The position numbers and the translations under genes were made by a program. DNA of 64,000 nt from Denitrovibrio sp. (GTDB taxonomy: Bacteria > Chrysiogenota > Deferribacteres > Deferribacterales > Geovibrionaceae): the NCBI GenBank assembly GCA_002869145.1, contig PKTM01000019.1, positions 128,486-192,485 of the forward strand, given 5' to 3'. Each line of letters opens with the position of its first letter. Within the stretch, counting starts at the first letter, position 1. The notes under the pieces were generated by a model, which was not told the DNA's origin, searched no databases, and saw nothing but the letters and a program-made list of their open reading frames with translations. Of this stretch, positions 20,773 to 23,643 are shown one piece after another.

Positions 20773-20801
20773 TTGCTAATCATTTTTTTTAGGTCTATAA
20801 A
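20773..20801 (+). promoter_or_regulatory. Candidate promoter of the MATE leader
   Basis: TTGCTA at 20773-20778, a spacer of exactly 17 bases, then TATAAA at 20796-20801. Transcription would start near 20808, giving a leader of about 145 bases before the MATE start codon. Confidence 0.55.
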
Positions 20802-20828
20802 GCTAGAATCAATTTACGGGGTGGTTTA

Positions 20829-20852
20829 ATGATTTCAGCAGTTGTTTGTTAA
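20829..20852 (+). CDS. Possible 7-residue leader peptide upstream of the MATE gene
   Basis: ATG at 20829 opens a very short frame, MISAVVC then TAA. A purine-rich GGGGTGG site lies 4 bases upstream. The stop codon overlaps the first base of the terminator-like stem. Length and position fit a regulatory leader, but a frame this short can arise by chance. Confidence 0.4.
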   Translation: MISAVVC

Positions 20853-20916
20853 GAGTGATCTAGAATCAAAAAAGCTTCTCTCTTCTTTTACTCCAGATCA
20901 CATCTCAGGTTTTTTT
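20852..20916 (+). terminator. Terminator-like hairpin in the MATE leader, possible attenuator
   Basis: AGAGTGATCT (20852-20861) pairs with AGATCAC-A-TCT (20895-20905) over 10 bp with one bulged A and a 33-base loop. Four bases later come seven T (20910-20916). A ribosome held on the leader frame would cover the first arm and stop the hairpin forming. The copies of CTAGAATCAA at 20803 and 20860 may give an alternative pairing partner. Confidence 0.45.
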
Positions 20917-20951
20917 AGTTATTAACAGCTTAATCTTTTTCAGGTGAAATT

Positions 20952-22313
20952 TTGAAATCAAATATCGAATATTCCGGAAGCATCAGAGAGATGATCTCTA
21001 TTGCATTGCCTATGGTTGTCTCAAACGCTTGTGAGACGGTCATGACATTCACTGACAGGCTTTTCCTGTCGAAACTCGGTATGCCCCAGATGAGTGCTGC
21101 TATGGGCGGCGGGCTCAGCGTGTTTTTTATTACTACATTTTTTATAGGGATGCTCGGCTATGGTACGGCTTTGACAGCCCAGTATTATGGCGCTGGTGAA
21201 AAATGGAAATGTCCAAAGGTGCTCACCAACGCACTTATCATAGCTGTGTTAGCATATCCTCTTTTGCTCTGGTGTAAACCTCTTATGCATACGCTTTTTA
21301 TAAAGCAGGGGATAAGCGAGGGGCAGCTTTATTATCAGTTGATATATTTTGACATACTCCTTTATGCGTCTATCCTCAGCCTTGCCAGAGGTGTTTTCAG
21401 CAACTTTTTCAGCGGTATCGGAAAGACCAGAGTTGTTATGATAGCCTCTTTCAGTGCTATGTTTGTGAATGTGATAGTCAGCTATGTACTGATTTTCGGA
21501 CACTACGGCTTTCCTCAGCTCGGGATGAAAGGCGCAGCCATAGGAACCATTTCTGGGACAGTTTTTGCGCTTTCTGTGCTCATATTTACATACTTCAGAT
21601 CATCTCTTATGAAAGATTATTCTATTAAGGATTCTTTTACTTTTGACTTTGAGATTATAAAGAAGCTGTTCCGGTTTGGCACACCTTCAGGCATAGAGTT
21701 TTTTATGGTTCTTTTTTCTTTTACAATGGTCATTGCACTCTTTCATGCACAAGGACCTGTCACGGCTGCTGCCACTACAATAATGTTTAACTGGGATCAT
21801 GTGTCGTTTGTGCCTCTTATCGGAGTGGAGATAGGCGTTACAAGTCTTGTGGGCAGGTATGTTGGGGCAGGCAGGCACGATATAGCTGAAAAGGCTGTGA
21901 AGTCCGGCATAAAGCTGGGGTGGATGTTTTCTGCTATAATTCTTTTCCTGTTCATCTTCTTCCCGGGAGCACTTAGCGATGTTTTTAGGCCTGATGGTGG
22001 AAGCGAGATTTATACTCAGGCAAGACCCCTTTCAGTGTTTATGCTTCGTATAGCTTCTGTTTACATTATGCTTGAGGCTGTAATGGTAGTTTATATGTGT
22101 GCACTAAAGGGTGCAGGGGATACATTCTGGTCTATGATAATCAACGTCTCTTACCACTGGAGTATACTGGCACTTCTTTATGTGGTGCTTAATGTTATCA
22201 ATGCCGGGCCGGAAGCTGCATGGATTTTTGTTGTTGCTGTTTTTACATTACTGCCGTTTATTCTCAGGTTTCGATTCAATAGCGGTAAGTGGAAATCTAT
22301 CAGCACTGTGTAA
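20952..22313 (+). CDS. MATE-family multidrug efflux protein
   Basis: A 453-residue inner-membrane exporter with twelve hydrophobic segments in two halves, as in NorM/DinF proteins. Landmarks are ALPMVVSNACETVMTFTDRLF at the N-terminus, TALTAQYYGAGE in the first half and VGRYVGAGRHDIAEKAV in the second. MATE proteins expel cationic drugs in exchange for sodium ions or protons. It starts with TTG, 5 bases after an AGGTGA site. A single-gene unit with its own promoter and terminator; the leader suggests drug-dependent control (inference). Confidence 0.9.
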   Translation: MKSNIEYSGSIREMISIALPMVVSNACETVMTFTDRLFLSKLGMPQMSAAMGGGLSVFFITTFFIGMLGYGTALTAQYYGAGEKWKCPKVLTNALIIAVLAYPLLLWCKPLMHTLFIKQGISEGQLYYQLIYFDILLYASILSLARGVFSNFFSGIGKTRVVMIASFSAMFVNVIVSYVLIFGHYGFPQLGMKGAAIGTISGTVFALSVLIFTYFRSSLMKDYSIKDSFTFDFEIIKKLFRFGTPSGIEFFMVLFSFTMVIALFHAQGPVTAAATTIMFNWDHVSFVPLIGVEIGVTSLVGRYVGAGRHDIAEKAVKSGIKLGWMFSAIILFLFIFFPGALSDVFRPDGGSEIYTQARPLSVFMLRIASVYIMLEAVMVVYMCALKGAGDTFWSMIINVSYHWSILALLYVVLNVINAGPEAAWIFVVAVFTLLPFILRFRFNSGKWKSISTV

Positions 22314-22334: not shown

Positions 22335-22358
22335 GGGGAGCCGGAAAGCTCCCCTTTT
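22335..22358. terminator. Bidirectional intrinsic terminator
   Basis: GGGGAGC and GCTCCCC form a 7-bp stem with a 6-base loop. TTTT follows and an A-run precedes it, so it can end both the MATE transcript and the converging fprA transcript. The stem closely resembles the terminator at 8602. Confidence 0.88.
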
Positions 22359-22378: not shown

Positions 22379-23587
22379 CTAGTTTTCTAAGACTGCCATA
22401 CCGAAATCGCGCCCCCACTGATATGCATCAGCGAGATCCTCTTCGGAAGGAGTCATTTTCACTTTAAAAGATTCCAGCGGAAGTTTCATACGCATGGACT
22501 TCATTATGTCTTCTGAAACCCTTACGCCTTCACCGCTCCATCCAAAAGAACCGAAGCATCCGCCCAGTCTGTTCACCACGTTCAGCACCACAAAGAATGA
22601 GAACATGTCTAAAATAGGGTGGGGGGCTTTTGCGTTAAGAGTTGGTGTTCCGATAAGTACGCCGTGTGATATCTCTATGGAGTCTATGATGGTCATGACA
22701 TCCGTTGTTGCACAGTCAAACATCTCAACCTTAACACCCACTTCTTCGATACCTCTGGTGATGGCATCAGCAAGTTTTTTAGTGTTTCCATATGCAGAGG
22801 CATAGACCAGAGTTGCCTGCCTGTTCACCATGTTTTTGTAAAACCTGCCGGCTGATATTTCATAAAAGTTCATATAGCTTCTGATGTCTTCGTCTATGAT
22901 AGGTCCGTGGGAAGGGCATACCATATCGATATCGACACCTTTGATCTTCTCAAGAGCTTTGTTTATGTGCTCTTTGTATGGGCGCATTATCATAGAATAG
23001 TAAAATTCGAAAGCTTTTCTTGCTTCTGGCTTGTTTTTCAGTTCGCTATTTAAAAGAACATCACCATGAGGACAGTAATGCGCACCCAGAAAATCGCAAG
23101 GGAAGAGTATTTTCTCTTCAACCAGATAGGTGAACATAGTATCTGGCCAGTGCAGAAATGGTGTGTGAAAGAATCTGAGAGTTTTTCCGCCAAGGTCAAT
23201 AACGTCATCGTCGCCCACTGCACGGCCGTTAAATTCGTGGTTTACAATATTTTCCACAAATGTTTTAGCTGTTTTAGAGTAGATAACCTCCATTTCGGGG
23301 TTTATCTCAAGCAAAGCAGGAAGCGCTCCTGAGTGGTCTGGTTCGTTGTGGTTAAGTATTATATAATCAATATCCTTGATAGGCATAACCTGCTCTACAC
23401 GCTGGATATATTCGTCTTTAAAGTTAAGTTTGCAAGCCTCAATAAGTGCACATTTTTCAGTACCTTTCACAAGATAACTGTTATATGTTGTCCCGTGTTT
23501 AGTAGGTATAACTATATCAAAAATCTCAAGTTCAGGATCTTTTACCCCTACCCAGTAGATATCCTTTTTTAAAAGAGTCGCCTCCAT
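22379..23587 (-). CDS. fprA: Flavodiiron protein (oxygen/nitric oxide reductase)
   Basis: A 402-residue A-type flavodiiron protein. The N-terminal lactamase-like domain carries the iron ligands in HNEPDHSG, a later His and Asp (FHTPFLHWPD, CDFLGAH) and CPSHGPI; the C-terminal flavodoxin domain starts at YASAYGNTKK. These enzymes reduce oxygen to water or nitric oxide to nitrous oxide, taking electrons from rubredoxin, and protect anaerobes from air or nitrosative stress. The ATG at 23587 has a GGAGGT site; an upstream in-frame start would add 14 unconserved residues. The rubredoxin gene lies directly upstream. Confidence 0.94.
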   Translation of the reverse strand: MEATLLKKDIYWVGVKDPELEIFDIVIPTKHGTTYNSYLVKGTEKCALIEACKLNFKDEYIQRVEQVMPIKDIDYIILNHNEPDHSGALPALLEINPEMEVIYSKTAKTFVENIVNHEFNGRAVGDDDVIDLGGKTLRFFHTPFLHWPDTMFTYLVEEKILFPCDFLGAHYCPHGDVLLNSELKNKPEARKAFEFYYSMIMRPYKEHINKALEKIKGVDIDMVCPSHGPIIDEDIRSYMNFYEISAGRFYKNMVNRQATLVYASAYGNTKKLADAITRGIEEVGVKVEMFDCATTDVMTIIDSIEISHGVLIGTPTLNAKAPHPILDMFSFFVVLNVVNRLGGCFGSFGWSGEGVRVSEDIMKSMRMKLPLESFKVKMTPSEEDLADAYQWGRDFGMAVLEN

Positions 23588-23618
23588 TTTACCTCCAATT
23601 CTATGATAAACGGATTTG

Positions 23619-23643
23619 AAAAAAGCCACCCGGAAGGTGGCTT
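23619..23643 (-). terminator. Intrinsic terminator between rubredoxin and fprA
   Basis: On the minus strand AAGCCACC and GGTGGCTT form an 8-bp stem with a 5-base loop, followed by a T-run. It lies just after the rubredoxin stop and before fprA, so fprA depends on readthrough or its own start of transcription. Confidence 0.85.

Follow-up and report, generated by a model that had tools for sequence, protein, structure and literature searches.

How is the gene for a MATE family efflux transporter controlled when the DNA between its promoter and its start codon holds both a short reading frame and a hairpin? The question arises from a 64,000-nucleotide stretch of Denitrovibrio DNA (the window), for which a sequence-only reading had proposed ribosome-mediated attenuation: a ribosome stalled on the short frame would block a terminator hairpin and allow transcription of the exporter gene. 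Each part named in that proposal can be read directly in the DNA, that is, a promoter, an open reading frame (ORF) encoding MISAVVC with its own ribosome site, a bulged 10-bp hairpin, a run of seven T, and the MATE start. The stop codon of the leader also touches the first arm of the hairpin as described, with TAA at 20850-20852 and the arm starting at 20852. The parts are as follows.

20773..20801, + strand: promoter, TTGCTA, 17-base spacer, TATAAA; the same 17-base spacing in all seven leader-bearing genomes
20818..20824, + strand: ribosome site of the leader ORF, GGGGTGG; a purine-rich site here in 7 of 7 genomes, with differing letters
20829..20852, + strand: leader ORF (uORF), MISAVVC, 7 codons, ATG at 20829; position conserved
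20852..20861, + strand: hairpin 5' arm, core GTGATCT at 20855-20861; supported by covariation over seven genomes and by z-scores
20862..20894, + strand: hairpin interior, weak inner pairs and a pyrimidine-rich apical loop
20895..20905, + strand: hairpin 3' arm, core AGATCAC at 20895-20901, A20902 bulged
20910..20916, + strand: run of seven T, present only in the window's species
20942..20946, + strand: ribosome site of the MATE gene, AGGTG; AGGT(G/A) before the MATE start is conserved
20952..22313, + strand: MATE family efflux transporter, 453 aa, TTG start

The -35 element lies at 20773-20778 and the -10 element at 20796-20801, placing the predicted transcription start near 20808. The stem, 10 bp with one bulged base, pairs 20852-20861 with 20895-20905 around a weakly folding interior of 33 bases. 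The product of the downstream gene exceeds the cut-offs of both PF01554 (107.2 bits) and TIGR00797 (180.6 bits against a curated cut-off of 147.4), and Aq128, which has a solved structure, and NorM are among its sequence relatives. The decamer CTAGAATCAA is present in two copies within the leader, at 20803-20812 just after the -10 element and at 20860-20869 in the first arm of the hairpin.

In the window alone, these parts are near chance level, with chance rates taken from the window and from shuffles. The promoter site falls below the cut-off of the promoter scan, and the terminator scan of the window does not call the hairpin as a terminator. The 108-nt leader RNA folds no better than its shuffles (z +1.3), the hairpin segment by itself reaches z -1.6 (p 0.07), and in 28% of window shuffles a short ORF preceded by a ribosome site stops at the same place. 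Promoter, ORF, and hairpin rise above chance because they are conserved in relatives.

Conservation of the leader among relatives

In the NCBI taxonomy, Denitrovibrio and Seleniivibrio belong to the Geovibrionaceae (Deferribacterota), which form a small family of anaerobes. Among the 12 genomes of this family that were compared, 11 contain an ortholog of the window's MATE gene together with a second, distant MATE; the twelfth (G003) has only a distant MATE. The leader is found in 7 of the 11: the window genome, a second Denitrovibrio (G001), and five genomes of a Seleniivibrio-type genus (G005, G007, G009, G010, and G011). In all seven the order is the same, that is, a promoter with a 17-base spacer, a ribosome site, an ORF of 6-11 codons, the hairpin, and MATE. 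The promoters combine TTGCTA, TTGCTT, TTGATA, or TTGTCT with TATAAA, TATAAG, or TATATT. Failure of the frame or stem to be conserved in relatives had been named as grounds for abandoning the sequence-only reading; frame and stem alike recur in six more genomes, where the stem shows compensatory changes and the leader stop codon lies at or in the first arm every time.

Conservation of the hairpin was followed with two covariance models. The first, built from three near-identical Seleniivibrio-type sequences, matches G005 (E 4.5e-6) and, weakly, G009 (E 0.58). When the model was rebuilt with the five Seleniivibrio-type sequences, its best matches outside the training set in 30 kb were the hairpins of the window (E 0.089) and of G001 (E 0.34), each at the homologous place. 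In the seven-sequence alignment, 89.9% of cells pair, and sliding the partner by one to three columns reduces pairing to 33-49%. Both partners are replaced at nine of the 21 pairs, as where U-A becomes C-G at the second core pair of G001; shuffles give 4.3 on average, and 0 of 500 reach nine. The count comes from seven sequences, three of them very close, in a structure-fitted alignment with segment ends chosen from pairing. No other measure of pairing or covariation was reached in these 500 shuffles either. The covariance-model alignment was required, as RNAalifold on a plain MAFFT alignment, in which the arms are misaligned, gives no structure. All seven hairpins fold more stably than their own shuffles do on average (z -1.6 to -4.4). 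By this comparison of sequences, the hairpin is real and evolutionarily conserved.

The leader ORF is conserved in another manner. The encoded peptides are MISAVVC (the window), MITSRN, MIVFSCSYLRD, MIESVIYNLCD, MIVSRINNLCD (in two genomes), and MKFVINQN. By position, a short leader ORF with a ribosome site stands upstream of the gene in all seven genomes, and its translation is predicted. In the six leaders used for the position test (the seventh encodes a peptide already represented among them), the ORF starts 23-28 bases before the first arm of the hairpin and stops between 5 bases before the arm and 5 bases into it. For a given genome, such an ORF arises in 3-35% of shuffles; support for the ORF therefore comes from its recurrence in several lineages and not from any single genome. 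Inspection of the peptides by eye reveals no conserved stalling motif, and they vary in sequence and length. Consequently, no drug-specific stalling motif can be named. It is the position of the uORF that is conserved rather than its peptide, as expected of a sensor of ribosome position.

Could the ORF and the hairpin simply happen to fall together in an AT-rich intergenic region? Every part is near chance in the window by itself, and the element is absent from G002 and from the Geovibrio-like genomes. However, the covariation, the detection of hairpins outside the training set, and the conserved spacing all speak against coincidence, which is disfavoured by the conservation and is very unlikely.

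The apical loop is CCCTCTC in six of the seven genomes and differs in the window (CTTCTCTCTTC). This suggests another explanation, in which the hairpin with its CCCUCUC loop would be where a trans-acting factor (an RNA-binding protein, an RNase, or a small RNA) binds or processes the RNA, and the uORF would be secondary. Such a site would fit the identity of the loop in 6 of 7 genomes and the stronger conservation of the hairpin than of the peptide. It would not account for the different loop of the window, nor would it need the distance from uORF start to hairpin to be kept; it is considered unlikely. A riboswitch or other Rfam family was rejected, since the leader has no Rfam match at the gathering threshold or at E values up to 5.

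The absences of the leader are distributed as follows. G002, which is of the same genus as the window and whose MATE is 67% identical to that of the window, has neither uORF nor hairpin in its 111-base intergenic region, although its promoter, TTGTCA-17-TAGATT, is similar to those of the leader genomes. This relative (L002, L039) has the most similar MATE and represents a natural deletion of uORF and hairpin with the promoter kept. Three Geovibrio-like genomes (genus g3, a putative label) lack the leader and have a different gene neighbourhood; in the window genome, G001, G002, and the Seleniivibrio-type genomes, a gene for an HD-domain protein and one for a small membrane protein lie upstream of MATE. 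The Geovibrio-like orthologs (L003, L004, and L005) have a palindrome, CTGAAAANTNTTTTCAG, in the spacer of a TTGCTG-17-TATAWT promoter, some 30-60 bases before the MATE start codon. Since the palindrome resembles a repressor operator, a protein may regulate the same exporter in these genomes.

The MATE tree groups the window with G002 in one clade, and places G001 in a second clade together with the Seleniivibrio-type genomes. Given these clades, the leader either predates their split, with at least one loss, or moved with the locus. By eye, no such leader precedes the second MATE of these genomes, and in other phyla (Omnitrophota, Planctomycetota, Bacteroidota, and others) none was detected before MATE homologs of about 50% identity. 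Searching with the leader DNA by blastn gives only noise outside its own genome. A covariance-model search of the genomes for further copies, run with strict filters, gives a convincing score to the MATE copy alone; this search itself missed the Denitrovibrio copies and G009, and diverged copies could likewise escape it. In G011 (L060:2795-2940), a repeat of about 150 bases is inserted between the leader and the MATE gene. With 43 matches in G011 and some in G010, G007, G008, G005, and G006, it is a REP- or MITE-like element.

Possible outputs of the hairpin

The original proposal relied on the hairpin and the T run as an intrinsic terminator, which a ribosome stalled on the uORF would prevent from forming. 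In the window, the stem is indeed followed by seven T, and the leader stop touches the first arm. However, the run begins four bases past the stem, behind CAGG, so that the U run does not directly follow the hairpin; the hairpin interior is as long as 33 bases; and the terminator scan passes the structure over. In addition, the sequences after the core stem, ATCTCAGGTTTTTTTAG (window), ATCCGGCATTTTAG, TTTTCAAGGCGATCTTAG, TTCAAGGCAAATTTAG, TTCAAGGCAAACCAG (two genomes), and ATTTTGGCGTACCAG, contain a run of six or more T only in the window. In the six relatives with the hairpin, T runs do not exceed 4-5, and two of these genomes lack any run of three or more. An intrinsic terminator is thus rejected as the conserved output, and classical attenuation is decidedly unlikely as the general explanation; it could operate in the window's species alone. 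Since the hairpin has been selected without a conserved U run, it does something other than intrinsic termination in most species. What stands of the earlier proposal is a conserved uORF-hairpin leader, and what falls is the hairpin and T run as a conserved intrinsic terminator. A downstream promoter in the AACAATTT..TATTAT tract was also considered and was rejected, as it has no convincing -35 partner at a conserved position.

The preferred reading, to which a probability of roughly 55% is assigned from the sequence comparison, is that a cis-acting uORF-hairpin leader couples expression of the MATE exporter to the ribosome on the 6-11-codon uORF. A ribosome lingering near the end of the uORF, because of slow elongation, slow termination, or arrest by a drug, would cover the first arm and prevent the hairpin from closing. 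With the uORF idle or quickly cleared, the hairpin would close and MATE expression would be low. Because the peptide sequence varies, the signal would be translation stress in general, not a single drug recognised through the peptide. The lack of a conserved stalling peptide and the absence of the leader from G002 count against this reading. Nothing in the comparison points to an antibiotic as inducer, the regulation being read from sequence. In a simple model, a ribosome on the leader stop codon removes the basal stem in 6 of 6 complete leaders, an outcome that holds by construction, as the footprint covers the arm; with a ribosome on the start codon, the basal stem stays.

How the state of the hairpin would be passed on to MATE is a weaker part of this reading. 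The leader might control translation by hiding or exposing the MATE ribosome site, in the manner of erm or toiL-type leaders. The general layout of uORF, structure, and gene is the same, and in the window the tail of the 3' arm has some short complementarity with AGGTG. However, access to the MATE ribosome site is predicted at 0.16-0.56 for the ribosome-free RNA and at 0.14-0.60 when a ribosome occupies the leader stop, and across the six species ribosome position changes it in no consistent direction. Sequestration of the site is therefore not predicted and was rejected, and translation attenuation of this kind is quite unlikely.

For the cis-acting leader, the read-out may instead be early termination by Rho in the leader, which is rich in C and poor in G, or the translation or stability of the MATE mRNA may be affected by a route other than an intrinsic terminator. 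As an output, Rho or translation coupling would be more plausible than a conserved intrinsic terminator. From the loop onward, the RNA is C-rich and G-poor in all seven genomes (C/G 2.2-2.8), and rho is present. A C-minus-G excess of the size seen in the leader is reached by 11-24% of random 150-base stretches, however, and since such an excess is not rare, Rho remains a guess.

The apical CCCTCTC might also base-pair with the ribosome site of the leader ORF, a pairing predicted to be best in G007, G010, and G011 and, in G010, to compete with the basal stem. As candidates for a competing antiterminator, alternative pairings of this type exist, but none is common to all genomes. One fuller scheme would make the leader a translation-stress sensor for a MATE gene in a Gram-negative phylum, with a hairpin at the uORF stop, a read-out that is neither an intrinsic terminator nor site sequestration, and feedback of CCCUCUC on the uORF ribosome site. 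With all of these features together, the scheme is improbable.

Known leaders and neighbouring features

Leader ORFs for drug pumps are known mostly from Gram-positive bacteria, and mostly upstream of ABC, ABC-F, and MFS genes. In the tna operon leader (tnaC), a ribosome at the leader stop codon controls the access of Rho to the RNA just downstream, a process that requires a conserved TnaC peptide and tryptophan. The MATE leader differs in that its peptide is unconserved and Rho is a guess.

The toiL uORF of the E. coli topAI-yjhQP operon is an established case in which antibiotics stall ribosomes on a uORF and Rho provides the output (PMC12121999). Like the MATE leader, it is a Gram-negative example with a short uORF, in which ribosome position controls RNA structure and an intrinsic terminator is not needed (PMC12121999). 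However, toiL base-pairs along its whole length with the ribosome site of the downstream gene, whereas the hairpin of the MATE leader follows the uORF and has no visible sequestering role; moreover, toiL controls a toxin-antitoxin pair rather than an exporter (PMC12121999). The leaders of Bacillus subtilis bmrCD (PMC4191407), vmlR (PMC9226507), and mef/mel (PMC4335068) also place a uORF and an adjacent hairpin before a gene for a drug pump or resistance. These systems are Gram-positive, their genes are not MATE genes, and they use an intrinsic terminator (vmlR together with other layers), unlike the leader described here, in which the T run is unconserved. The uORFC-6-1 motif before hflX in Bacillales resembles the MATE leader in that a uORF and structured RNA, identified by comparison, are conserved ahead of a translation-stress gene; it differs in phylum and gene (PMC8632094).

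Searches of the open-access literature found no uORF leader described for a MATE gene, nor any in Deferribacterota. A conserved example without a conserved terminator would extend such control to a further taxon and pump class, and perhaps to a further read-out. The prediction is that translation inhibitors induce the exporter and that the relative without the leader has lost this response.

MATE proteins 45-54% identical to that of the window (L040-L118) are scattered among genomes of Omnitrophota, Planctomycetota, Elusimicrobiota, and Bacteroidota. This scatter suggests either horizontal spread or a widely conserved subfamily. At the other end of the MATE gene, a strong hairpin at 22335-22354, GGGGAGCCGGAAAGCTCCCC, with T-rich tails on both strands, separates MATE from the convergent flavodoxin/metallo-beta-lactamase gene (22379-23629, minus strand). 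This hairpin is an ordinary bidirectional terminator.
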